From contig NZ_VFOL01000001.1 of assembly GCF_006716065.1 (NCBI RefSeq), positions 1,550,001 through 1,614,000 on the forward strand: a DNA stretch of 64,000 nucleotides, in the 5' to 3' direction. The position numbers were made by a program, and so were the translations under genes. Every line of letters starts with the position of its first letter. Position 1 is the stretch's first letter. A model generated the notes under the pieces. The model had not been told where the DNA came from, made no database searches, and worked only from the letters and a program-made list of their open reading frames with translations. Positions 3,424 through 64,000 of this stretch are shown here, piece after piece. Origin of the DNA: Salinispora arenicola. GTDB lineage: Bacteria > Actinomycetota > Actinomycetes > Mycobacteriales > Micromonosporaceae.

Positions 3424-4079
3424 GCCTCGCGACCAGCAACGCAACAGCGCCGGCGGACGGCCCGGTCACCCCGCCCAAGGTGGTCCGGCAGCGCCGGATG
3501 CGCCCCGGCCTGCTCGGCCTGGCCGTCCTGCTGATCGCCCTCGGTGGCCTCGGCTCGGCCTTCGCTGTCAACGCGGTCCGCGCCACCGGCACCTACCTGG
3601 CGGTGGCGCGGCCGGTCGAGGTGGGCCGGGTGGTCAACGCCGACGACCTGGTGACCGTGCAGGTCGCCGGCGGGGCGGGGCTGTCCCCGGTGCCGGCCGG
3701 GCAGCAGGGCGAGGTGGTCGGGAAGCGGGCGAGGGTGGCACTCGTCCCCGGAACGCTGCTCACCATGGACCAGCTCACCGACAAACCACTGCTCGCCTCC
3801 GGCCAGCAGCAGCTCTCGGTGGGCCTGGAATCGGCCCAGGTGCCGGCCCGCCGGCTGCATCCCGGTGACAAGGTGTCGCTGGTCAGCACCCCGGCCGGCA
3901 CCGACGACCGGGCCGCCGCCACGGCGACCCGCTTCGCGGCCACCGTCATCGACACCAGCGGCACCGGGAACGACGACGAACTGGTGGTCTACCTGGCGCT
4001 CGCCGTGCGGGACGTGCCGGCGGTGGCGGCACTGGTGGCCCAGGACCGGATCGCCATCGTGCTCACCGAGGCGGCCTGA
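3420..4079 (+). CDS. CpaB/RcpC-like SAF-domain protein
   Basis: GTG start overlaps the previous stop (GTGA). One N-terminal membrane helix (residues about 25-48, GLLGLAVLLIALGGLGSA) is followed by a SAF domain around residues 60-125 and a beta-rich remainder, the layout of Flp pilus assembly protein CpaB. In Gram-negative bacteria CpaB works at the secretin; here there is no outer membrane, so a wall or membrane scaffold role is inferred. It sits between the secreted protein and the TadZ-like ATPase. Confidence 0.75.
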   Translation: MSLATSNATAPADGPVTPPKVVRQRRMRPGLLGLAVLLIALGGLGSAFAVNAVRATGTYLAVARPVEVGRVVNADDLVTVQVAGGAGLSPVPAGQQGEVVGKRARVALVPGTLLTMDQLTDKPLLASGQQQLSVGLESAQVPARRLHPGDKVSLVSTPAGTDDRAAATATRFAATVIDTSGTGNDDELVVYLALAVRDVPAVAALVAQDRIAIVLTEAA

Positions 4080-4081
4080 GC

Positions 4082-4882
4082 ATGGCGATCATCGCGTTGG
4101 TCGCCGCGAAGGGCTCGCCGGGGGTCACCACCTCGGCGCTGGCCTGCGCCCTGACCTGGCACCGGCGGCTGGTGCTCGCCGAGTGCGACCCGGCGGGCGG
4201 ATCCCTGCTCGCCGGATTCCTCGGCGGCGCGCTCGACGGCCCCCGAGGCATCGGCGAGTTGGCCGTCGGGGAACTGCGCGACGGCAACCTGGAGGCGGCG
4301 TTCTGGTCGCAGCTGGTCGACCTGGACGCACCGAAACGGGAGCGGCTGCTGCTGCCCGGGGTCGTCGACCCTGTCCAGGCGGGCAGTGTCACCCCGCTGT
4401 GGCAGCGGTTCGCCGACTTCTTCACCGAACTCGACCACGGTGACCCCCCGTACGACGTGCTCGTCGACTGCGGCCGCCTGCACGTGCCCGGCCCGCCCTG
4501 GCCGATCCTGCGCGCCGCCTCGGTGGTGTTGGTGGTCACCGGCGCTCGACTGCCGGAGGTCTCCGCCACCCGCGCGTTGGTCCGGACCATGCAGCGAGAC
4601 TTCACCGAGCACCGGGTCGCACCGGGCACGATGCGGCTGCTGTTGGTCGGCGGCGGGCACGGGCGCGGCGAGATCAGCAAAGCGCTGCGGCTGCCGGTCA
4701 TCGCGCGGCTGCCACACGACCCGCGTACCGCCGAGGTGTTGACCCTCGGTGGCACCGTGCGGGTCGGTCGGCCGCTGATGCGCGCGGCCAGCGAGTTGGA
4801 GGTGCCGATCGGAGCGCTGCTGGACCGACGGCGGGCCCGCCTGGCCTGGCCGGTGACGCAGGGGGTGCCGAATGCGGTTTGA
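4082..4882 (+). CDS. TadZ/CpaE-like ParA-family ATPase
   Basis: Starts 2 bases after the CpaB-like stop. The N-terminus MAIIALVAAKGSPGVTTSA is a deviant Walker A of MinD/ParA proteins (conserved Lys before GSPGVTT). A later DVLVDCGRL fits the Walker B strand. No receiver domain is present. Expected to localise the Tad machine at the membrane or pole. It overlaps tadA by 11 bases, showing tight coupling. Confidence 0.78.
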   Translation: MAIIALVAAKGSPGVTTSALACALTWHRRLVLAECDPAGGSLLAGFLGGALDGPRGIGELAVGELRDGNLEAAFWSQLVDLDAPKRERLLLPGVVDPVQAGSVTPLWQRFADFFTELDHGDPPYDVLVDCGRLHVPGPPWPILRAASVVLVVTGARLPEVSATRALVRTMQRDFTEHRVAPGTMRLLLVGGGHGRGEISKALRLPVIARLPHDPRTAEVLTLGGTVRVGRPLMRAASELEVPIGALLDRRRARLAWPVTQGVPNAV

Positions 4883-6386
4883 ACCGGTCTCCGCCGACCC
4901 GCGGCGGCACGCCCCACCGGCCACCTCGATCGTGCCCCCGCCGACCCTGCCCAACGACCAGCACCACGCCCCGGCCGTTACCCGGCCGGAGCCGCCGCCC
5001 CGACCCCGGGTCGACTTCCAGGTCGTCCGTGAGCTGCGCCGGGAACTCAGCGAACGGCTCACCCAGTGGCAGCGCGGCCGGGAGTTCGACCCCGACGCCG
5101 AGGACACCGAGCGCGCCCGGCTGGCGGTCACCGTCGTCTCCGGGTACGCCGACGCGGTCCGCCGGGCCGGCACCCCGATCACCGCCGACGAGGAGCGGCT
5201 CCTGCTCGACCAGGTGACCGCCGAGCTGGCCGGGCTTGGCCGGCTCCAGACGCTGCTGGTGGACGAGACCATCGAAGAGGTGCACATCCTCGGCTGCGAC
5301 CAGGTGCGCATCACCCGACACGGCGGCGGGATCGACTGGGTCGAGCCGATCGCCGACAGCGACGACGAGTTGGTGGAGATCCTGCAGGCGGCGGCCCGGC
5401 GGGCGGGCGCCACCGAACGCTCACTGTCCACCTCGAAGCCCACACTCGACCTGCAACTGCCCGACGGCAGCCGGCTCGCCGCGGTGTTCCTGGTCAGCCA
5501 CCGCCCGTACGCAATGATCCGTAAGCACAACACGCTCGATGTGGGCCTGGACGACCTCGCCGGCGGCCGGGGCGACCTGGACGAGATGCTCGACCCGTTG
5601 CTGCGCGACTTCCTCCGCGCGGCCATGCGCGCCGGCCTGAACATCATGGTCGCCGGCCTGGCCGGGGCAGGCAAGACGACAGTCATTCGCGCCCTGATGA
5701 ACGAGATCCCGGCCGATGAGCCGTACGTGCTGCTCGAGGAGAGCCGGGAGTTGTTGCCGGCCCGCCGCGGCGACCAGCACCGGGCGGTGATGAGCTTCGA
5801 GGCCCGCGAGGGACACGGCGAACGCGGGCCGGACGGCCGCCCGGCCGGTGAGGTCAGCATCGCCGACCTCATCCCGGTGTCGCTGCGGATGGGCGTCCTG
5901 CGGATCATCGTCGGTGAGGTCCGCTCCCGGGAGATCGTGCCGATGCTCCAGGCGATGACCACCAGCCGCGGCTCGATGTGCACGATCCACGCCCGGACGC
6001 CGGCCGGTGTCGGCGATCGGATCATCGAGCTGGCCCTGGCACACGGCCGGGACATGACCGTTGACCAGGCCCGGCGGATGGCCGGCAACGCGCTCGACCT
6101 GATCGTTTACGTCACCATCGAGGACGAGACGGCGATCGGTGGTCGCAAACACCGGTTCGTCTCCCACGTCGAAGAGGTGATCGGCGTCGCCGACAGCGAA
6201 CGGATCACCACCACCACGGTCTTCGGGCCCGGGCCGGACGGGCGGGCGGTGCCCCGGCACCTACCGGAGCGAATCCGCGCCCAGCTCCTACGGGCCGGCT
6301 ACGATGCCCGACTGCTGAGCCGATGGATCGAGGCCGGCACCGGTGCGTGGCGGCGCCCCCGGCAGAACCGGCTGGTCCAACGGTGA
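4872..6386 (+). CDS. tadA: TadA/CpaF secretion ATPase
   Basis: 504 residues, normal for CpaF-type T2SS/T4P ATPases. Walker A is GLAGAGKTTVIR (about residues 263-274). The Asp-box/Walker B region follows as VLLEES and ADLIPVSLRMGVLRIIVGE, and the conserved His region is SMCTIHARTP. It powers pilus assembly with TadB and TadC, whose genes follow with 4-base overlaps. The proline-rich N-terminal 40 residues are probably disordered. Confidence 0.9.
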   Translation: MRFEPVSADPRRHAPPATSIVPPPTLPNDQHHAPAVTRPEPPPRPRVDFQVVRELRRELSERLTQWQRGREFDPDAEDTERARLAVTVVSGYADAVRRAGTPITADEERLLLDQVTAELAGLGRLQTLLVDETIEEVHILGCDQVRITRHGGGIDWVEPIADSDDELVEILQAAARRAGATERSLSTSKPTLDLQLPDGSRLAAVFLVSHRPYAMIRKHNTLDVGLDDLAGGRGDLDEMLDPLLRDFLRAAMRAGLNIMVAGLAGAGKTTVIRALMNEIPADEPYVLLEESRELLPARRGDQHRAVMSFEAREGHGERGPDGRPAGEVSIADLIPVSLRMGVLRIIVGEVRSREIVPMLQAMTTSRGSMCTIHARTPAGVGDRIIELALAHGRDMTVDQARRMAGNALDLIVYVTIEDETAIGGRKHRFVSHVEEVIGVADSERITTTTVFGPGPDGRAVPRHLPERIRAQLLRAGYDARLLSRWIEAGTGAWRRPRQNRLVQR

Positions 6387-7285
6387 ACACCGTCGTCGAC
6401 GTCGAACTCGTCGCGGTGCTCTCCGGAGCAGCCTGCGCGGCCGGGCTGCTGCTCGCCGTCGTCGCGATCGTCGGCACCCGCCGTCCGCCCGGGCGGCGCC
6501 CCGGCGCCGGGCGCGGGATCAGCCGGCTGGTTTTCGGCGCCACCCCCCAGGAGCGGCGAATCCACCAACTGCTGCTGGTCGGCGCGGTGTTCGCCGGCGC
6601 GCTGGGGTTTGTGCTGACCGGGCTTCCGGTGGTCGGTTTGCTGGTCGCTGTCGCGGTCCCCGGCGCGCCCTGGCTCTTCTCGGTCGGCCGGGCCGAGCAG
6701 CGGGCCATCGCCCGCGTCGAGGCGGTCGGTGAGTGGACCCGACGGCTCAAGGATGTCTCAGCCACCGGGCAGGGCCTCCAGGCCGCGATCACCGGCACCG
6801 TCGCCACCGCGCCCGAGGAGATCCAGGAGGAGGTGCGGCTGCTCGCCGCCCGCCTCCAGGCCGGCTGGCTGGCCCGTCCCGCCCTGCTGGCCTTCGCCGA
6901 CGAGATCGCCGATCCGGTCTGCGACCAGGTGGTGGCGGCGTTGATTCTGCACCTGACCGACCGGGGTGAGCGCCTCGGCGACGTGCTCGGGTCCATCGCG
7001 TCAGCCGCCAGCGCCGAGGTTGCCACCCGGCGGGAGATCGAAGCCAAACGTACCCAGCCCCGGTTCGCGGTCCGCTTCCTCACCGGAATGACCCTGGCGG
7101 TGCTCGCGTACGGGCTGCTCAACACCGACTACATCCGTCCGTACGGCACCCCGACCGGACAGCTCGTGATGGCGGTGCTCGGGGTGGCCTTCGTTGTGCT
7201 GCTGGCCTGGGTACGCGCGATGAGTCAGCCGCAACGGCCGGCCCGTTTCCTGCCGGCGCCCGACCCGCAGGAGGTGGTGACGTGA
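6383..7285 (+). CDS. tadB: TadB-like inner-membrane platform protein
   Basis: GTG at 6383 overlaps the tadA stop; an in-frame ATG at 6323 inside tadA is less likely. Hydrophobic helices lie near the N-terminus (VAVLSGAACAAGLLLAVVAI), at about 75-100 and at the C-terminus, flanking a cytoplasmic T2SSF-type helical domain (EWTRRLKDVSATGQGL to about 240). This is the standard TadB layout. It pairs with TadC as the membrane core of the machine. Confidence 0.82.
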   Translation: MNTVVDVELVAVLSGAACAAGLLLAVVAIVGTRRPPGRRPGAGRGISRLVFGATPQERRIHQLLLVGAVFAGALGFVLTGLPVVGLLVAVAVPGAPWLFSVGRAEQRAIARVEAVGEWTRRLKDVSATGQGLQAAITGTVATAPEEIQEEVRLLAARLQAGWLARPALLAFADEIADPVCDQVVAALILHLTDRGERLGDVLGSIASAASAEVATRREIEAKRTQPRFAVRFLTGMTLAVLAYGLLNTDYIRPYGTPTGQLVMAVLGVAFVVLLAWVRAMSQPQRPARFLPAPDPQEVVT

Positions 7286-8148
7286 CGAACTGGCCGTTGA
7301 CCATCGGGGTGACCGCGGGGGGAATGGTCGGGCTCGGGGTCTTCCTGGTGGTCCGGGAACTCCTGCCGGCGACTCCGGCGCTCGGTCCCGCGCTGCGGCG
7401 GCTGCACCAGCCGCCGGGCTCGCACCCGGCCGCGCCCGCCGGGCACCGGCTGGAATGGCTGACCGGGCTCGCCCGGTGGCTGCGTCCACCGCACCAGCAA
7501 CTCGCCCTGCTCGGCCGTACGCCCGAGCAGTACGCCCTGTCGCTGCTGCTCTCCGCGTTGATCGGGCTGGCCTCGCCGACCCTGCTCAGCATCACGTTCG
7601 CCGCCACGGGTGTCGGGATGCCGGTGGCCGTACCGGTGCTGGGCAGTCTCGGTCTGGCGCTGGTCTGCGCGTGGCTTGCGCACCGCGCGGTGCTGACCAA
7701 GGCGGAGGCGGCCCGGGCCGAGTTCCGGGCGGCCGTCTGCACCTACCTGGATCTGGTGGCGTTGCAGCTTTCCGCCGCGCACGGGCCGGTGCAGTCGCTG
7801 GAGCGGGCGGCGGAGGTCTGCGACGGCTGGGTCTTCGACCGGATTCGGGAGTCGCTGCGGCTCGCCCAGCTCCAGATGCACTCACCGTGGGACGAGTTGC
7901 GGGACCTCGCCGACCGGATCGGTATTCCCGAGCTCGGCGACGTGGGCGCGATCATGCGCTCCTCGGGCAGCGAGGGTGCGCAGGTGCATGAAACCCTGCG
8001 CAGCCGTGCCGACTCGCTGCGCGACCAGATCCGCACCGACAACCTGGCTCGGGCGGAGGGGGTGACCGGTCGGCTGGACATCCCCGGTGCCCTGCTCGTC
8101 TTCGTTCTGCTCGGCTTCGCGACCTACCCGTTCGTTGCCCGTCTCTGA
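7282..8148 (+). CDS. tadC: TadC-like inner-membrane platform protein
   Basis: GTG at 7282 overlaps the tadB stop by 4 bases. 288 residues with membrane helices at the N-terminus, at about 85-125 and at the C-terminus (PGALLVFVLLGFATYPFVARL), and a central T2SSF-like helical domain (YLDLVALQLSAAHGPVQSLERA). Works with TadB and the TadA ATPase. A 24-base gap with AGAAGGAG then leads to the pilin-like gene. Confidence 0.82.
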   Translation: MTNWPLTIGVTAGGMVGLGVFLVVRELLPATPALGPALRRLHQPPGSHPAAPAGHRLEWLTGLARWLRPPHQQLALLGRTPEQYALSLLLSALIGLASPTLLSITFAATGVGMPVAVPVLGSLGLALVCAWLAHRAVLTKAEAARAEFRAAVCTYLDLVALQLSAAHGPVQSLERAAEVCDGWVFDRIRESLRLAQLQMHSPWDELRDLADRIGIPELGDVGAIMRSSGSEGAQVHETLRSRADSLRDQIRTDNLARAEGVTGRLDIPGALLVFVLLGFATYPFVARL

Positions 8149-8172
8149 CCGCCATCCGAGAAGGAGCCCGCC

Positions 8173-8367
8173 ATGTCCGTGTTCACCTACCTGCAGGTCG
8201 CGCTGGCCGCGCGCCTGGCCGAGCTGCGTTCGGACGGCGAACGGGGCGACAGCCCCGTTCCCACCGCTGTGATCATCTTCGGTCTGGTGGCTGCCGCGAT
8301 CACCGTCACGGCGCTTGTGGCCACCAGGGCGGAGGGCTGGATGAACGCCATTCCGACCGCACCCTGA
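8173..8367 (+). CDS. Small pilin-like peptide (putative Flp-type pilin)
   Basis: 64 residues with a good ribosome site (GAGAAGGAG). A charged N-terminal half is followed by one hydrophobic helix (PTAVIIFGLVAAAITVTALV) and a short polar tail, and it lies exactly where the major Flp pilin gene belongs. It lacks the usual Gly-x-Thr-x-Val-Glu-Tyr processing motif; GDSPVPTA stands there instead, so cleavage by the peptidase at 592-1341 is uncertain. Best reading is a diverged Flp pilin; it could also be an accessory membrane peptide. Confidence 0.6.
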   Translation: MSVFTYLQVALAARLAELRSDGERGDSPVPTAVIIFGLVAAAITVTALVATRAEGWMNAIPTAP

Positions 8368-8371
8368 TCCG

Positions 8372-8911
8372 GTGCGGGCGATGATCGCCGGCCACCGGCC
8401 GGGGAGCCCCGCACGGCGATCCGCCCGACGGCGGCCCGACGTTGGCATGTGGCGCCGCGGCGTACGGCGGGACGGCTTCGCCGTGTGGCGCCCCAGCGTG
8501 CGGCAGGTCGGCTTCGCCGCACACCACCGGCTCGGTGGTACGGACCGGGGCGCCAACCCGGTGGAACTGGCGGTGGTGATGCCGGTGATCTTCCTGTTGC
8601 TCTTCGGGTCGATCCAGGTGGCCGCCGTGTTCATCGCCCGCTCCACGGCCCTGCACGCGGCGCAGAGCGGGGTCAACGCGCAGCGGGTGTTCAACGCCCC
8701 ACCGGACGCGGGCGCGGACCGGGCGCGACGCTTCCTCACCGTGGCCGGCGGCTGGCTGGTCGACTGGGACTCCCCCGGACCGAGTTGCCAGACCGACGCG
8801 ACCGAGGTGACCTGCACAGTCCGCGGCCGTTCGCTCTCCGTCGTGCCCGGCGTCGACTTCCCGGTGCACGAGAGCGCACACGGGACGGTGGAACGGTGGA
8901 CGGCGCCGTGA
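8372..8911 (+). CDS. TadE-like pseudopilin
   Basis: The core DRGANPVELAVVMPVIFLLL has the TadE signature: Arg-Gly, then Glu at position +5 of a hydrophobic helix (VELAVV). The C-terminal part is small and soluble with two Cys. The first 50 residues are Arg-rich and low in complexity, so the true start (GTG 8372, or an internal Met/Val) is uncertain. It overlaps the next pseudopilin gene. Confidence 0.75.
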   Translation: MRAMIAGHRPGSPARRSARRRPDVGMWRRGVRRDGFAVWRPSVRQVGFAAHHRLGGTDRGANPVELAVVMPVIFLLLFGSIQVAAVFIARSTALHAAQSGVNAQRVFNAPPDAGADRARRFLTVAGGWLVDWDSPGPSCQTDATEVTCTVRGRSLSVVPGVDFPVHESAHGTVERWTAP

Positions 8912-9369
8912 TCCGCGACCGGGGATCGGTCTCCGTCGAGGTGGCGATCCTCGCGCCGGCCTTCATCGCACTGCTGGTTCTCGCCGGCGTCGCCGGGCGT
9001 ACCGCGGTCGCGGCCGAGGCCGTCGAGGCGGCGGCTCACGACGCTGCCCGGGCCGCCTCCATCTCCCGCGACGCGGGCACCGCCGGGCAGCGGGCCCGGG
9101 ACGCCGCTGTCCGGCAACTCGACTGGCGCGGCCTGAGCTGCACAGACACGCCGACGGTTGACCTCAGCGGCGCCGTCAACGGCCAGGCGACCAGTTTCGC
9201 CGCCGCGTTCCGCAGCTCGGTCGGCCAGCAAGCGTCGGTGACTGTCCGCCTCACCTGCACTGTCGACCTGTCGGACCTGAGGCTGGACGCGCTACCGGGG
9301 ATGCCGAGCAGCCGTCGGGTGTCGGCGAGTTTCACCTCACCCCTGGACCGCTACCGGAGCCGGGGATGA
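8908..9369 (+). CDS. TadE/TadF-like pseudopilin
   Basis: I chose the GTG at 8908 because it overlaps the previous stop as GTGA, like other junctions here; GTG 8896 is an alternative. The start IRDRGSVSVEVAILAPAF is a TadE-type leader with Glu in a hydrophobic helix. The remainder has two Cys (LSCTDT and RLTCTV) and is probably extracellular. A minor pilin of the Tad machine. Confidence 0.75.
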   Translation: MIRDRGSVSVEVAILAPAFIALLVLAGVAGRTAVAAEAVEAAAHDAARAASISRDAGTAGQRARDAAVRQLDWRGLSCTDTPTVDLSGAVNGQATSFAAAFRSSVGQQASVTVRLTCTVDLSDLRLDALPGMPSSRRVSASFTSPLDRYRSRG

Positions 9370-9800
9370 CCGCCGTGTCCCTGGACCGGGGCGATTCGGG
9401 CCGGGTCAGCGTCTTCCTGGCCATCGCCGCCTTGGGCATTCTCACCGTTGTGGCGCTCGCCTTCGACGGGGCCGGGCAACTGCGCGCGCTGCAACGAGCC
9501 GACAACCTCGCCAGCGAGGCAGCCCGTGCCGGAGGGCAGTCGATCGACCTGGTCAGCGCGATCGAGGGAGGGCCGAAGCGGATCGACGAACCGCAGGCGC
9601 GGCGGGCGGTGGCCGGGTATCTCGCCGCCGCCGGTGCCAGCACGCACACGGTCAGCTTTCCGGTGGTCGACGGCGAGACCGTTGTTCGGGTCCGGGTCAC
9701 GGTCACGTACGAGAGGTCGCTGCTCGGCCTCGTCGGCTTCGACGACACCGTCAACGTCACCGGGGAGGCGACCGCTCGGGCGCTGACCGGCGGAGTGTAG
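9366..9800 (+). CDS. TadE/G-like minor pilin protein
   Basis: ATG overlaps the previous stop (ATGA). The N-terminus DRGDSGRVSVFLAIAALGIL matches the short actinobacterial TadE/G-like proteins found beside secretion helicase genes: Arg-Gly, then a long hydrophobic helix. The predicted soluble part (SFPVVDGETVVRVRVTVTY) is beta-rich. Likely a membrane-anchored minor pilin. Confidence 0.7.
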   Translation: MTAVSLDRGDSGRVSVFLAIAALGILTVVALAFDGAGQLRALQRADNLASEAARAGGQSIDLVSAIEGGPKRIDEPQARRAVAGYLAAAGASTHTVSFPVVDGETVVRVRVTVTYERSLLGLVGFDDTVNVTGEATARALTGGV

Positions 9801-9814
9801 GAAGGAAGGCAGCC

Positions 9815-10957
9815 ATGCTCACACCGGCTCGTGTCCTCGGACGGGTCCTCACCGGGTTCGGCGCGCTTGCCCTGCTCTGCGCGTTGCTGATCGGCGCCCC
9901 GATGGCGCTGCTCGCGTTCGCCGGTAACCCCCTGCCGGCGCAGGTGCCCACCCTCGACGAGGTCGGTGCCATGCTGACCACCCGAGACGACGGTCAGCTC
10001 TTCCTCCGAGCACTGGCCCTGGTCGGCTGGGCGGGCTGGGCCACGTTCGCCCTGTCGGTACTGGTCGAGCTGGGTGCTCTCGCCTGCCGGCGCCCCGCAC
10101 CCCGGTTGCCGGGGATGAACCGGCAGCAACGGGCCGCCGCCGCGTTGGTCGGCTCCGTCACGTTGATCTTGGCAGCCAGTCCCGTGGCGGCGAGCGCGGC
10201 GGCGGTGGCGGGGCCACCGGCACCCGCTGCCACCTCGGTCAGCGTGGCGCTACCACCGTCCCCGGTGGAACGCCCAGTGCTGGTCGCGCTGCCCGAGCCG
10301 GTGCGGCAGCAGGCGGTCAGCGCGGCGCCGAGCACCGCGCGGACCGCAGAACCGGAGCGGGAACCGGTCTACCGGGTGGCCCGGGGCGACCGCCTCGGAT
10401 CGATCGCCGCGCGGTACCTGGACGGTTTCGACGACTACCCGACCCTGGCCCGGCTGAACCGGTTGGCCGACCCGGACCGCATCCATCCAGGTCAGCTCCT
10501 GCGGCTACCCACCAGGGCCCAGGACCGTGGTGCCGGCCCCCACGCCACCGGGCGGCTGGTCGCGCGCCCGACCCCGCCCCGGCCGTCCGCACCGGCAGCG
10601 GCGCCGGCCGGGCCGTCGACGCGACCATCGGTTTCGGACACGGCGGTTTCGGACGCCTCAGTCTCGGATACATCGACGACGGGCGCGTCGGCGTCGAACC
10701 GGACAGGCCCGGACCCGGTGCAGGACGTGCCGATCGTGGCCGTGGGCGCGGCTGGGCCGGGCGACCCGAGCCGGGTGAATCGGCCGCTCGCGGTGTCGGC
10801 GGTCCTCGCCGCGTCGGGCATCGTCGGCGCGCAGATCGGTGCGGTGCTCGGCCTGCGGCGGCGTCCGGCGACCGCTCGTGCCGGAACCGACCGTAAGGCG
10901 GCGCCGACCGGCCGACGGCAGTGGGAACTGCCCGCTGGCCGGCACCGGCGGGAGTGA
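9815..10957 (+). CDS. Membrane LysM protein at end of Tad operon
   Basis: 380 residues. A first helix (residues 10-35), a second (about 65-90), then a third before a proline-rich stretch. A LysM motif follows at about 187-237: VYRVARGDRLGSIAARYL, then LARLNRLADPD and HPGQLLRLP. After a Pro/Ser/Thr-rich linker comes another hydrophobic segment (LAVSAVLAASGIVGAQIGAV). It should bind peptidoglycan and may anchor the pilus machine to the wall. In other actinomycetes a longer version carries a BTAD regulatory domain, absent here. RBS GGAAGG at 9801. Confidence 0.72.
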   Translation: MLTPARVLGRVLTGFGALALLCALLIGAPMALLAFAGNPLPAQVPTLDEVGAMLTTRDDGQLFLRALALVGWAGWATFALSVLVELGALACRRPAPRLPGMNRQQRAAAALVGSVTLILAASPVAASAAAVAGPPAPAATSVSVALPPSPVERPVLVALPEPVRQQAVSAAPSTARTAEPEREPVYRVARGDRLGSIAARYLDGFDDYPTLARLNRLADPDRIHPGQLLRLPTRAQDRGAGPHATGRLVARPTPPRPSAPAAAPAGPSTRPSVSDTAVSDASVSDTSTTGASASNRTGPDPVQDVPIVAVGAAGPGDPSRVNRPLAVSAVLAASGIVGAQIGAVLGLRRRPATARAGTDRKAAPTGRRQWELPAGRHRRE

Positions 10958-11068
10958 CGCGGGCCCCAGGATGTCCAGCCGGCGGGCATGCTGGCCGAGG
11001 TAGCGGTGACGGCGTGTTCGTGTATGAGGTGGGCCCGGAAGCCGAGGGGCCCGGCTGGGAACACCGGC

Positions 11069-11692
11069 CTAGGCAGCGCCCCAGCGGTCGGTGTGCACGG
11101 CATCGGTCAGTGGGCGCTTCTTTCGCCAGCCGTGTCGTGCCAGGTCGGGTACCTGCTCGAAGTGGGTGACCGGGCCGAGGCAGAGCCAGGCCACCGGACG
11201 GATTCCGGCCGGGATGTCGAGCAGGTTGGCGAGCCACTGCTCGCGGTAGAACGACACCCAGCCGACGCCGAGTCCCTCGGCGGTCGCGGCGAGCCAGAGG
11301 TTCTGGATGGCCAGGCAGGCTGAGTAGAGCCCGGTGTCGGCGATCGCGTGTCGGCCGAGGACCGCCGGACCGCCCCGGGCCGGGTCGTACGTGACGACGA
11401 CCGCCAGGCTGGATTCCAGCACGCCGTCGATCTTGATTCGGGCGAACCTTTCGGCGGCCTCCCCGTCCAGCGTCGTGGCGAACACCTCCCGCTCTGTGCT
11501 GACGTGCTCGTGGAAGCGACGGCGTAGTTCCGGATCCCGGACCAGGATGAAGTCCCACGGCTGCGAGTACCCGACGCTCGGTGCCGCGTGAGCGGCTGCG
11601 AGCACTCGGTCCAGTGCCTCCGGGGGCACCGGTGCTCCGGTGAACTGTGCCCGCACGTCCCGGCGGCGGTGGATGACGTCGTACAGGTCCAT
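11069..11692 (-). CDS. bluB: BluB, 5,6-dimethylbenzimidazole synthase
   Basis: Oxygen-dependent flavin destructase that converts FMNH2 to the lower ligand of cobalamin. The frame shows the BluB nitroreductase fold: start MDLYDVIHRRRDVRAQF, then AAPSVGYSQPWDFILV, GLYSACLAIQNLWLAATAEG and GVGWVSFY. I place the start at 11692, where homology begins; a 46-codon upstream extension looks spurious. No cobalamin riboswitch was recognised upstream. No other B12 genes are nearby. Confidence 0.85.
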   Translation of the reverse strand: MDLYDVIHRRRDVRAQFTGAPVPPEALDRVLAAAHAAPSVGYSQPWDFILVRDPELRRRFHEHVSTEREVFATTLDGEAAERFARIKIDGVLESSLAVVVTYDPARGGPAVLGRHAIADTGLYSACLAIQNLWLAATAEGLGVGWVSFYREQWLANLLDIPAGIRPVAWLCLGPVTHFEQVPDLARHGWRKKRPLTDAVHTDRWGAA

Positions 11693-59948: not shown

Positions 59949-60168
59949 TAAATCACTACCGACTACTACAATGGCGCTGAATTGCTTGAAACGGGCGTAT
60001 AGTTACGTTCCCGAGTCTTGCCGCGTACCCCGATGGCGTTCGCATTCCTGGTCTGATTTCCGTGGGCGATCGGACGACCTAATGGCGACGATCGGTCAAC
60101 CCGGACCAACCGAATCGGGCGGTATAGTTTCCGGCTAACTTGTGGCTGTACTCCCGTGGAGAGTGTCG
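59949..60168. other. Promoter region of the mbtH-like gene
   Basis: 220 bases; TATAGT occurs twice (near 60009 and 60123), possible -10 boxes. No gene. Confidence 0.35.
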
Positions 60169-60378
60169 ATGGAAGAATCCGAGGATCCGCGCCCCTACCA
60201 CGTCGTGGTGAACGACGAGGAGCAGTATTCGATCTGGCCGGACGGGTCGGAGGTTCCGGCCGGATGGCGCATGGTGGGCTTCAGCGGCGATCGGGCCAGC
60301 TGCCTCGCGCACATCGACGAGGTCTGGACCGACCTGCGCCCGCGAGGGCTGCGGGAGTGGCTGGCCGCCCAGGGCTGA
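60169..60378 (+). CDS. MbtH-like protein
   Basis: 69 residues from ATG 60169 behind GTGGAGAG. The family signature [19 protein letters not shown] is complete, including the Trp residues that contact the adenylation domain. MbtH-like proteins activate and stabilise A domains; the NRPS at 60758 is the obvious partner. Two strong hairpins separate them, so the NRPS has its own promoter. Confidence 0.93.
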
Positions 60379-60757: not shown

Positions 60758-63700
60758 GTGCGGGCGACGCCCCTCGACACCGCTATCGACCCGGACCCGA
60801 CGCCCACCACGGCGGTCGGCGCCACCGTGCCGGACCTCGTCGCCGCCGCGGCGCGACGGCAGCCGGACGCGGTCGCGGTTGCCGGCAGTGACGGGGCCGC
60901 GCTCACCTACCGGGAGCTGACCGAGCAGGCCGAGGCCCTGGCCCACCGGCTCGTCACCTGGGGCGTCCACCCGGACGAGCCGGTGGCGGTGGCGCTGCCC
61001 CGCTCGGTGGAGCTGGTCGTCACCCTTCTCGCCGTACTCAAGGCCGGCGGTGGGTATCTGCCTCTCGACCCGGCTGATCCGCCAGCGCGGACGCGGCAGC
61101 TGCTCGCCGTGGCCGGGGATCCGCCGGTGCTGTCCACAGGCGAGGTGCCTGGTGCCACGCGGCTGTTCCGTCTGGACCAGCCCGGCCCCACCGCGCCCAC
61201 CGGTGCCGTGCCGCGGCGACTCCACCCCGCTGGTCTCGCATACGTCAACTTCACCTCCGGCTCCACCGGTACGCCGAAGGGGGTTGCCGTTGCCCACTCT
61301 GCCGTGGTCCGCCTGATTCACCAGCCTGGCTACCTGCGACTGGGGCCGACCGAGACGGTTCTCCAACTCGCTCCGGCCGCCTTCGACGCGGCGACCCTGG
61401 AGATCTGGGGTGCCCTGGCCACCGGGGCCCGGCTCGTGCTGGCCCCACCCGGCGCGCTGGACCTCGCCGACCTGGCCCGGCTGCTCCGCCGGGAACGGAT
61501 CACAGTCCTCTGGCTGACCGCCGGGCTCTTTCACCAGCTGGTGGAGTTCGACCCGGACTGCCTCGCCGGGGTCGGGCAACTCCTGGCCGGCGGGGACGTG
61601 CTCGGCCCGGACGCGGTCCGCCGGGCACTGCAAGCGCGTGACGGAGCGGTTCTGATCAACGGGTACGGCCCGACCGAGAACACCACCTTCACCTGCGTGC
61701 ACCCGATGACCGACCCGGCGGCCGTACCGGACCCGGTGCCGATCGGTCGGCCGGTGCCAGGGAGTACCGTGTACGTCCTTGACCCGGCGGGACGACACGT
61801 GCCCGTCGGGGTTCCCGGAGAGCTGTACACCGGCGGTGCCGGGGTCGCCCGGGGATACCTCGGGCGTCCGGGGGCCACGGCGGCGGTATTCCTCCCCGAC
61901 CCGTTCGACCCCCGCCCGGGATCCCGGATGTACCGCACCGGGGACCGAGTCCGCTGGCGGCCGGACGGCACCCTCGACTTCCTCGGCCGGATCGACGAAC
62001 AGGTGAAGATCCGCGGGTTCCGGGTCGAGCCGGGCGAGGTCGCGGCGGTGCTGCGGGCCCACCCCGCCGTCGGGGACGCTGCCGTCCTGGTCGACGGGGA
62101 GGGAGAACGGCGTCGGCTGCTGGCATACCTGACGCCCCGGCCGGGCGCGTCGGCACCGACCCCGCAGGAACTGGCCGGCTACGCAGCCGATCGGCTCCCG
62201 GCCCACCTCCGACCGGCGGCCTTCCTGATCCTGTCCACTCTGCCCCTGACCCGTAGCGGCAAGATCGACCGGCGGGCACTGCCCCGACCGGAACCGCCCG
62301 CAGCTCGGCCCGTTACCGCCGTGACCGATCCGGTCCAGGTGCGACTGGCGGCCCTCTGGGCCGAGCTGCTCGGTAGCGCACCTTCCACCCCGGACGACGA
62401 CTTCTTCGCGCTGGGCGGGAACTCGCTGCTCGCCACCCGGCTGACCTTCGTCGTCGCCGACCGGTTCGGGGTCGACCTGCCGGTACGTGTCGTCTACGAG
62501 CACCCAACGCTCGCCCGGCTCGCCGGCGTCCTCGGTGAGCACCCCGAAGCGCGGCCGGTGAGCACCGGGGTGACCCGTCGAGACCGGGCTGGCTACCGGT
62601 CGCCTGCGACCACGGACGCCATGGCCCGCCAACCGGCCCGTTCGGGCGACGAACCCGGCTCACGGTGGCACTGGGCCCCCACCCGGGCCCCGGCCGCAGA
62701 CCCGGGTCGTTCCGAACCCGACGGCACTCTCTCCGCGGACCTCGCCGAGAGCCTCCGGCCGGCGCTCAGCCTGCTGTTGGACAGCGTCAGCTGGTTCACC
62801 TCCGCCGCGTTGGCGCTGGTTCGACGGACCGCCGTGGAGCGCTACCGCGACCTGGCGGCCCGCACCGGATCGCCGACGGTCGCCTTCGTCGACTTCTGGC
62901 ACGGGAACAGCGACCTGTTCGTGGATCCGCCGGTGAAGCTGCTCACCCCACTCGTGCGGGGGTTGCAGGACCGCTGGGCGCGGATCCTGCCCGACGCGGT
63001 CGGCCACCGGGTCACCGCCACCTCGGCCGAGCTGGGGGACCGGGTGGCCGAGGCGTTTGCCGCACCCCGACCCGGCTGGATCGGCGCCCACCAGCACAGC
63101 CTGGACGTATTTCTGGCCGCCGACGGGCTGGACGTACTTCTGGCCGCCGACGGGCCGGAGGCGGTCGCCCGGGGAGACGTCCAGGGGGTGATCGGCGGGG
63201 TGCACCCGGGGTTGACCACCCTGCGCTCGGCGCTCCTCGTCACCGGTCGGGACGCCCGGCTGGTCTTTGGTCGCGACAACTGTGGCCCCGAGCCGGCCAC
63301 GACGCTGCCGGTCGGCGACTGTGTTCTCGGCCCGGTCGACGGCGTGTTGACCGTCAGCAGCCGGGGCGGACGCGACCGGCTACCGCTGACCGAGGTCCTC
63401 AAAGAGCCACTGCTGCGGCATCTGGCGCGGCGTTTCGACATCCGCCGCCCAGCCGAGCATCAGCCTCGGATCACCATCGACCGAGTGGTGCTGGCCCGCG
63501 AGAGCTGGCGTTTCACCGCCACCGGGCTGGGCTTCGCCACGCTGACCGGCCAGGGCGACCGGTTCCGTCGCGTCCAGCGGTGGCAGCACGAACACGGGCT
63601 GCCCCGGCATCTGTTCGGGTGGACCCCGATGGAGGAGAGGCCGTTCTCCCTCGACCTCACCAGCCCCGCCTCGGTTGACGTCCTGGCCGGTGCCCTGCGG

Positions 63701-63892
63701 CGCGCCGCCGACCACGACCCGGCCGCCACGCTGCGTTTCAGTGAGCCTCTGCCAGGACCGGAGCACGCCTGGCTCACCGATGGGCAGGGCCGGCAGCGCA
63801 CGGTGCCGCTGCGCCTCGTCGCCGTCGACACTCGCACCCCGGACGCCGACCGGCGGACGGACCGACGACACCGCAGTCAGGCGGAGGTATGA
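60758..63892 (+). CDS. NRPS A-PCP protein fused to LanB-like domain
   Basis: 1044 residues, GTG 60758. A domain: NFTSGSTGTPKG (about residue 164), NGYGPTEN (about 300), YRTGDRVRW, GRIDEQVKIRGFRVEPGE (about 410), SGKIDRRAL (about 500). PCP: DDFFALGGNSLLATRL (Ser about 556). Residues about 630-1044 contain PRITIDRVVLARESW (about 903), HGLPRHLFGW (about 946), and ERPFSLDLTSPASV, which resemble the lanthipeptide-dehydratase glutamylation domain. No condensation domain precedes, so this is a loading/initiation unit. The pocket code reads about DALWLGGTFK, near valine codes (inferred). The following gene overlaps by ATGA. Confidence 0.85.
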   Translation: MRATPLDTAIDPDPTPTTAVGATVPDLVAAAARRQPDAVAVAGSDGAALTYRELTEQAEALAHRLVTWGVHPDEPVAVALPRSVELVVTLLAVLKAGGGYLPLDPADPPARTRQLLAVAGDPPVLSTGEVPGATRLFRLDQPGPTAPTGAVPRRLHPAGLAYVNFTSGSTGTPKGVAVAHSAVVRLIHQPGYLRLGPTETVLQLAPAAFDAATLEIWGALATGARLVLAPPGALDLADLARLLRRERITVLWLTAGLFHQLVEFDPDCLAGVGQLLAGGDVLGPDAVRRALQARDGAVLINGYGPTENTTFTCVHPMTDPAAVPDPVPIGRPVPGSTVYVLDPAGRHVPVGVPGELYTGGAGVARGYLGRPGATAAVFLPDPFDPRPGSRMYRTGDRVRWRPDGTLDFLGRIDEQVKIRGFRVEPGEVAAVLRAHPAVGDAAVLVDGEGERRRLLAYLTPRPGASAPTPQELAGYAADRLPAHLRPAAFLILSTLPLTRSGKIDRRALPRPEPPAARPVTAVTDPVQVRLAALWAELLGSAPSTPDDDFFALGGNSLLATRLTFVVADRFGVDLPVRVVYEHPTLARLAGVLGEHPEARPVSTGVTRRDRAGYRSPATTDAMARQPARSGDEPGSRWHWAPTRAPAADPGRSEPDGTLSADLAESLRPALSLLLDSVSWFTSAALALVRRTAVERYRDLAARTGSPTVAFVDFWHGNSDLFVDPPVKLLTPLVRGLQDRWARILPDAVGHRVTATSAELGDRVAEAFAAPRPGWIGAHQHSLDVFLAADGLDVLLAADGPEAVARGDVQGVIGGVHPGLTTLRSALLVTGRDARLVFGRDNCGPEPATTLPVGDCVLGPVDGVLTVSSRGGRDRLPLTEVLKEPLLRHLARRFDIRRPAEHQPRITIDRVVLARESWRFTATGLGFATLTGQGDRFRRVQRWQHEHGLPRHLFGWTPMEERPFSLDLTSPASVDVLAGALRRAADHDPAATLRFSEPLPGPEHAWLTDGQGRQRTVPLRLVAVDTRTPDADRRTDRRHRSQAEV

Positions 63893-64000
63893 CCACCGAG
63901 ACCTACATCCTGCCGTCGTCGTCCTCCCAGCGGCGACTGTGGATGATCGATCAACTGGCGCCGGGGGCGGTGACCTACCACATCGCCTGGGCGGTCGAGC
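63889..64000 (+). CDS. NRPS, condensation domain start (3' partial)
   Basis: ATG 63889 overlaps the upstream stop (ATGA). Only 37 residues are in the window: LPSSSSQRRLWMIDQLAPGA matches the first condensation-domain motif (SxAQxRLW). The gene continues beyond the window, so the assembly line has at least one elongation module. Confidence 0.85.
   Translation, partial: MTTETYILPSSSSQRRLWMIDQLAPGAVTYHIAWAVE

Follow-up and report, generated by a model that had tools for sequence, protein, structure and literature searches.

The locus analyzed here raises the question of what a region resembling LanB-type lantibiotic dehydratases does at the end of a nonribosomal peptide synthetase (NRPS) protein. 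The window, a 64,000-nucleotide stretch of the genome of the marine bacterium Salinispora arenicola (assembly GCF_006716065.1, a single contig of 5.63 Mb, NZ_VFOL01000001.1; contig positions 1550001–1614000), encodes a 1044-amino-acid (aa) protein in which an adenylation (A) domain and a peptidyl carrier protein (PCP) domain precede such a region. An earlier note on this DNA suggested that the protein, which has no condensation (C) domain, might represent a new way of modifying an NRPS starter. Comparison with orthologous gene clusters corrects this tempting reading: the A-PCP-LanB protein is probably a natural deletion form and not a new starter-modifying enzyme. We regard it as likely, with fair confidence, that a vestigial domain of the PEARL type, which are aminoacyl-tRNA- and ATP-dependent ligases, is carried here on a working A-PCP loading module.

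A LanB-like region behind the carrier domain

The open reading frame (ORF), its A and carrier domains and the three motifs quoted in the earlier note were all found as described there. The features of the protein, in window numbering, are as follows; the ORFs come from a codon-bias caller, and their start positions may be off.

60758–63892, + strand: A-PCP-(LanB/PEARL remnant) NRPS protein, 1044 aa, GTG start
60845–62263, + strand: A domain, residues 30–502 (AMP-binding plus AMP-binding_C; Pfam)
62342–62530, + strand: PCP domain, residues 529–591 (Pfam PP-binding, E 7.2e-17)
62720–63835, + strand: the remnant, a LanB/PEARL-like C-terminal half, residues 655–1026 (ortholog identity, AlphaFold2, Foldseek)
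63431–63685, + strand: stretch matched by PF04738, residues 892–976, with PRITIDRVVLARESW and HGLPRHLFGW (Pfam)

The AMP-binding match (E 1e-74) covers residues 30–368, and AMP-binding_C covers residues 427–502. The Lant_dehydr_N profile PF04738 matches residues 892–976 (E 1.6e-9; 36.9 bits vs. a cut-off of 28), although this match spans only positions 568–649 of the 649 profile positions. Pfam reports neither a Condensation domain in the 1044-aa protein nor, at E values up to 1, the elimination domain PF14028. The AlphaFold2 model of residues 617–1044, built from an alignment of 28 sequences (pLDDT 81.6, pTM 0.83), was matched by Foldseek at E<=0.001 to 11 chains in the PDB, every one from a LanB glutamylation protein: TbtB (the best, 6.3e-12), MibB, NisB, GodF or MadB. 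Taken together, the Pfam and Foldseek matches indicate that the LanB resemblance is real and not due to chance. A sequence search of the PDB with the remnant alone returned no matches, and an NCBIfam scan of the C-terminal piece returned no families.

The assignment to the LanB family made in the earlier note thus holds in both the profile and the fold comparison, and these rule out a thioesterase, a reductase or another common NRPS terminal family. An assembly artifact is unlikely given that a same-length S. arenicola record, 98% identical over residues 610–1044, heads a cluster of 36 members.

Intact orthologs and probable losses in S. arenicola

The closest longer homolog, P0003 from Micromonospora sp. 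NPDC050187 (1548 aa), contains A, PCP and PF04738 (E 7.9e-36) domains. With its LanB part as the query, 160 genomes of the genus were searched. Matches at E<=1e-60 were present in 89 of these genomes, and seven close orthologs are 76–92% identical to the query. The seven orthologous clusters (hereinafter clade I) include those of Salinispora pacifica and Micromonospora nigra; six are covered whole, and the piece from G031 begins within the C domain and ends within the monooxygenase. In all seven, the first NRPS gene encodes a C-A-PCP-LanB protein. The gene order, which matches that of S. arenicola, is the first NRPS, a C-A-PCP protein, an FAD monooxygenase, a DUF6875 protein, a second C-A-PCP protein, a C-A-PCP-reductase, an MFS transporter and an O-methyltransferase; in three of the seven, the ORF calls place an MbtH gene ahead of the first NRPS. 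In the first NRPS of G032, Pfam identifies Condensation (16–455), AMP-binding (480–838), PP-binding (999–1062) and Lant_dehydr_N from residue 1310 (E 5.7e-36); the S. pacifica counterpart has the same domain order (LanB E 6.8e-29), and PF14028 is reported by Pfam in neither.

All six fully covered relatives also carry a second, stand-alone LanB-like gene directly after the methyltransferase gene. In the S. arenicola region, tblastn with three such proteins as queries gave a significant match only to the fused remnant, and by blastn the DNA similarity to S. pacifica ends at the end of the methyltransferase gene, which is where the stand-alone LanB gene starts in the latter species. At this position S. 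arenicola has a gene with F5/8-type and beta-1,3-glucanase-like regions (79601–81277 in window numbering).

The DNA of S. arenicola and S. pacifica is otherwise collinear, being broken at the losses, which map to the following features of the S. arenicola gene (residue numbers with a family letter are in P0008 numbering).

60794–60829, + strand: junction where relatives carry a C domain, about 450–465 residues more (alignments; blastn gap vs. S. pacifica)
62603–62719, + strand: deletion scar between the PCP linker and the remnant (alignment; blastn blocks vs. S. pacifica)
63101–63127, + strand: 27-bp (9-codon) insertion, a local duplication (FLAADGLDVLLAADG) (alignments)
63197–63199, + strand: codon 814, where G replaces the family-invariant E of GExH (E590; E in 55 of 55 homologs)
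63233–63238, + strand: junction of an in-frame 42-codon deletion within the remnant, which removes the invariant D620 (alignments)
63806–63808, + strand: codon 1017, where P replaces the invariant E of the C-terminal E-x-R (E842-x-R844; E in 55 of 55 homologs)

Compared with three relatives, the missing C domain amounts to 452–463 residues; the N terminus of the S. arenicola protein reads MRATPLDTAIDPD and that of the S. pacifica counterpart MPATPFDAAVDPD. The N-terminal half of the LanB domain, including the RYCxKNDTIGFFGP segment, shows a net loss of 1215 bp, or 405 codons, relative to S. pacifica. The 9-codon insertion and the 42-codon loss within the remnant are evident both when the protein is aligned with its M. 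nigra counterpart and in the blastn comparison with S. pacifica, and near residue 1029 the tail is 11–21 residues shorter than in the relatives. Every coding indel in the S. arenicola gene keeps the frame. Over the 363 shared codons, the remnant is 64–75% identical to the seven orthologs.

From these comparisons we infer that the C domain, the N-terminal half of the LanB domain and the 42 residues were deleted on the S. arenicola gene lineage. In the gene tree, the closest neighbor of S. pacifica is M. nigra (support 94) and not S. arenicola, so that the losses are assigned to the gene lineage rather than to the species split. The converse history, in which the short form is ancestral or separately assembled and the long form of the relatives gained its N-terminal half, is very improbable. 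Apart from the existence of the short form as an ORF, nothing speaks for it, whereas all 55 tabulated intact homologs, fused and stand-alone alike, have the N-terminal half, the model of an intact homolog matches solved LanB proteins over its length, and the short form was seen in S. arenicola alone among 29 proteins and the 160 genomes. A scan of genome contigs yielded 13 loci, one of them a close relative. The absence of a C domain, correctly stated in the earlier note as far as Pfam can tell, is best read as a deletion relative to the seven orthologous clusters and not as a new starter design. That C domain, fused PEARL and stand-alone PEARL were all lost together suggests that they serve a single sub-pathway acting at the start of the chain.

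Key residues, evolutionary rates and the fate of the remnant

Among 26 intact homologs, 34 alignment columns are invariant. Eighteen positions were tabulated for 55 intact domains, made up of 8 fused domains of clade I, 6 other fused ones, 6 stand-alone proteins, 2 from this genome, 7 metagenome fusions and 26 others. R204, K208, R429, D568, E590, D620, R732, F771, E842 and R844 are kept in all 55, Y201 in 54, and K779 and E247 in 53 each. The remnant has gaps at positions 201–247 and at D620, and substitutions of G for E590, R for K779 and P for E842; it retains D568, H592, R732, F771, P780, E821 and R844. An R of the remnant also aligns with R429, but this pairing is probably an artifact of the alignment program, and R429 is left out of the retained residues.

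According to the available text on BhaBC-Trp (PMC11962472), E813, R815 and D558 of that enzyme are assigned to ATP/Mg, R715 and F755 to the adenine, and R208, Y205, Q201 and R197 to the CCA end of the tRNA. By spacing alone, these residues were mapped to E842, R844, E590, R732, F771, R204 and Y201. Measured against the hallmarks of PEARLs, the S. arenicola protein is missing about 400 residues of a full-length PF04738-type domain, and the segment corresponding to the helix that binds the tRNA CCA end (Y-x-x-R and what follows) is deleted; on the spacing mapping, the ATP-grasp-like site with its metal-binding acids and E-x-R is not preserved either. The remnant thus appears to lack the putative tRNA site and two acids of the putative ATP site, and we infer from the sequence that it has no ATP- or aminoacyl-tRNA-dependent activity.

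These observations bear directly on the proposal of the earlier note that the domain works in S. arenicola by glutamylating, aminoacylating or dehydrating a carrier-bound residue. The PF04738 match, the LanB fold and the retained equivalents of R732, F771 and R844 are in its favor, but the putative tRNA-binding half is deleted, E590 is replaced by G and E842 by P, D620 is deleted and PF14028 is not reported, so that activity of this kind is hardly to be expected. Nor was a separate N-terminal half found that could complement the remnant: the five matches to this half in the genome all lie in open frames of 742–798 aa that also match the C-terminal half, which rules out a split enzyme.

The evolutionary rates were compared for eight sequences on one tree (363 codons of the remnant, 572 of A-PCP and 1058 of the next NRPS gene). 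The amino-acid branch leading to S. arenicola is 0.332 for the remnant vs. 0.107 for A-PCP and 0.117 for the next gene, that is, about three times longer in the remnant than in A-PCP. Under a GY94-type codon model made for this analysis, omega of the remnant is 0.203 on the S. arenicola branch vs. 0.080 elsewhere (likelihood-ratio test, p 3.2e-5); the corresponding values are 0.072 vs. 0.097 (p 0.17) for A-PCP and 0.077 vs. 0.105 (p 0.047) for the next gene, with no rise in either of these two controls.

Several observations weigh against a vestigial domain. The omega of 0.20 is far below 1 (omega of 1 is rejected, p 1.2e-11), indicating that some constraint acts or acted on the remnant; all coding indels keep the frame; and the core of the remnant model is confidently predicted, with pLDDT above 90 in many 10-residue blocks. 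Within the species, the differences between the window protein and P0002 (7 of 434 positions in the linker and remnant, 4 of 609 in A-PCP) are not significantly concentrated in the remnant (Fisher p 0.22), and the 90% cluster of the protein has 36 members, of which one representative was compared. Finally, P0003 as recorded is without a Condensation domain by Pfam, which speaks against the co-loss argument.

Some of these facts would fit a retained pseudoenzyme, a non-catalytic domain with a role in structure or docking, which might hold the PCP in place for the C domain downstream or bring in a PEARL acting in trans, for which two LanB-like proteins encoded in another NRPS cluster of the genome are candidates. 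Besides the exclusively in-frame indels, the low omega and the confident core, the C-terminal tail still resembles that of the relatives, and further LanB-like genes are present in the genome. Against this stand the roughly three-fold longer amino-acid branch of the remnant compared with A-PCP, the absence of the stand-alone partner gene of the cluster, and the arrangement of the gene end, which can by itself account for the frame. On balance, a pseudoenzyme seems unlikely. Because the S. arenicola branch takes in time before the deletions, its omega is compatible with recent decay as well as with a weak remaining role.

With regard to the gene end, the TGA stop of the 60758–63892 gene and the ATG of the next NRPS gene share a 4-base overlap (ATGA). 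As a frameshift would break the coupling to the next gene, this overlap alone would favor keeping the frame. If the domain is vestigial, as we prefer, the frame of the remnant would be kept mainly by the need to end on the ATGA overlap and to keep the C-terminal tail. The genes flanking the A-PCP-remnant gene are as follows.

60142–60378, + strand: MbtH-like protein (Pfam MbtH, E 6.7e-22), translation of which probably begins at the ATG at 60170
63889–64000, + strand: start of the next NRPS gene, C-A-PCP, 1083 aa, which runs past the window (whole gene 63889–67140 in window numbering)

The code letters of the A domain, assigned by motif position as D-A-L-W-L-A-G-T-F, are the same in S. arenicola and in eight intact relatives. 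The A domain would accordingly load the same residue as in the relatives onto the PCP, from which the next C-A-PCP protein would take it up. Like an NRPS loading module, the protein has A and PCP domains and no C domain, although its orthologs have one; A-PCP probably now does no more than load the first residue for C-A-PCP, C-A-PCP and C-A-PCP-reductase. Given these three elongation modules, the last with a reductase, the expected product would be a tetrapeptide that ends in an aldehyde or alcohol and has an uncapped N-terminus. The S. arenicola and S. pacifica clusters offer a natural comparison of what the PEARL unit contributes to the product.

Intact fused PEARL-like proteins and known systems

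The value of the finding lies chiefly in pointing to intact fused enzymes, which represent a little-studied way of joining amino acids. Fusions of A-PCP with LanB-like domains, for which the earlier note had proposed a search, indeed recur in further clusters of the genus. Eleven further places in the 160 genomes contain a LanB match, 46–53% identical, in open frames of 1092–2472 aa. A-PCP precedes LanB in all ten of them that were inspected (eight of eight by tblastn, plus L095 and L096), and at the six places with surroundings each fusion is a single ORF. Four of these proteins (L091 and L094–L096) are C-A-PCP-LanB by BLAST, which Pfam confirms for L091. Two others, L092 and L093 of clade III, are A-PCP-C-A-PCP-LanB proteins of 2456 aa (at 4296–11666 and 3801–11171 of their respective loci). 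PF04738 was not reported at E 0.01 on the whole L092 and L093 proteins, but the LanB piece of L093 alone matches it at 9.3e-23. PF04738 without PF14028 was found by Pfam in the fused and stand-alone proteins of G032 and of S. pacifica, and in P0003, L091 and P0036.

The C domain of both L092 and L093 contains EHHFIHDG, which conforms to EHHxxHDG, the ureido signature (Yu and van der Donk, 2024; PMC11212132). Directly upstream of the L093 gene are genes for a LysW-like amino-group carrier protein, a semialdehyde dehydrogenase and an amino acid kinase, which suggests a dedicated supply of a non-protein amino acid.

A search with the L093 domain retrieved 1082 proteins; among the best 120, 16 combine a carrier domain with LanB and 14 combine Condensation with LanB and have no carrier. 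C-LanB didomain proteins without A or PCP from this search include P0036 (architecture by Pfam), P0037, P0044, P0047 and others, several of them from JGI metagenomes. Of 15 C-LanB proteins inspected, 13 have the motif HHALLDG[R/H]S, one has HHAVADGRS and one has no motif. The first C domains read HHA[I/L]LDGR in six of the seven clade I proteins (the seventh is cut) and in all four of clade II. These counts indicate that the HHA[I/L]LDGR type of C domain and the PEARL domain tend to co-occur, and S. arenicola is without both; P0003 as recorded, with LanB and no C domain, is an exception that again speaks against linked loss.

In the intact relatives, the residues assigned by spacing to the tRNA and ATP sites are present, with R204, E590, R732, F771, E842 and R844 in 55 of 55 domains. 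The intact domains are more similar to published PEARLs than to dehydratases, and PEARL-type aminoacyl transfer is the likely activity of these intact relatives only. The spacings both of the tRNA site (Y-x-x-R) and of the ATP site (acid, R, F, E-x-R) match those of the ribosomally synthesized and post-translationally modified peptide (RiPP)-type PEARLs BhaBC-Trp, TglB and AmmB as given in the available text of PMC11962472 and PMC12945691, although the mapping is by spacing only and those enzymes act on peptides made by the ribosome. The best fold and profile matches are the class I lantibiotic dehydratases NisB and MibB and the glutamylation proteins TbtB and GodF; unlike them, neither the S. 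arenicola protein nor the scanned intact relatives have a reported PF14028, and the intact relatives possess the putative ATP-site residues.

One of the closest parallels among described systems is threopeptin biosynthesis. As the available text of PMC11212132 describes, the stand-alone PEARL SnaE is needed to add Thr to a ureido carboxylate, which is made by the A-T-C-A-T protein SnaA. Like SnaE, the proteins discussed here are of the PF04738 type and are encoded with NRPS and MbtH genes, and in clade III (G056, G140) the order A-PCP-C-A-PCP, with EHHxxHDG, followed by a PEARL-like domain is that of SnaA plus SnaE. Going by its description, SnaE differs in being stand-alone and intact, whereas the relatives are fused in cis and the S. 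arenicola domain is truncated. In S. arenicola, EHHxxHDG is absent from all three C domains of the cluster, which is a further difference from the threopeptin system, and a ureido pathway is thereby ruled out for this cluster.

By analogy with SnaE, the best-supported idea for the intact relatives is PEARL chemistry at a carboxylate near the chain start. Using ATP, an intact PEARL would phosphorylate a carboxylate that is free in the NRPS intermediate, and would then join to it the amino group of an aminoacyl-tRNA. Tentatively, and with slightly less than even confidence, we propose that the PEARL domain of the relatives, acting in cis, extends a chain-start carboxylate against the direction of the assembly line, that the C domain exposes this carboxylate by forming a urea (clade III) or another carboxylate-bearing cap (clades I and II), and that the co-loss in S. 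arenicola marks the C domain and the two PEARLs, fused and stand-alone, as one removable unit.

The available text of PMC11212132 already refers to enzymes of this kind fused to thiolation domains, so that the existence of PEARL-type fusions is in print. As far as the accessible open-access text extends, neither a C-A-PCP-PEARL protein nor a decayed PEARL fusion was found to be described, and no open-access paper was found that combines S. arenicola, lantibiotic dehydratase and NRPS. The more novel part of the present analysis is the NRPS modules of the relatives with PEARL fused in cis, one type of which lies behind a C domain with the ureido signature. The C-A-PCP-PEARL, A-PCP-Curea-A-PCP-PEARL and C-PEARL proteins make up a testable set for the joining of charged tRNAs and NRPS in one polypeptide.

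The cluster itself might correspond to SA nrps4 of S. arenicola CNS-205, for which Table 1 of PMC3360062 gives the entry 'tetrapeptide'. The A-domain loci given there, Sare4890, 4891, 4894 and 4895, leave two genes between the second and third NRPS, as in the present cluster, and the identity of the two is suggested by this gene order alone in the part of the source available. The word 'lantibiotic' does not occur in the main text of that article, and Sare0718, also named there, is a different gene.

Other LanB-like genes are present elsewhere in the genome. Another NRPS cluster (contig 963553–990331), the gene spacing of which fits SA nrps1 of CNS-205 as given in the available part of PMC3360062, contains two of them (977670–979793 and 982547–984883) along with genes for a stand-alone A domain, a stand-alone PCP, a pyridoxal phosphate (PLP) enzyme, an OTCase-like carbamoyltransferase and a class III aminotransferase. 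At the tabulated key positions, the two LanB-like proteins deviate only in having S for E247 and R for K779. More LanB-like genes are located at contig 3404501–3418800 and 4851839–4854052, near AMP-binding genes. Finally, many genomes of the genus contain LanB-like matches that lie next to each other in pairs (e.g., G044:C2:134191-138674).

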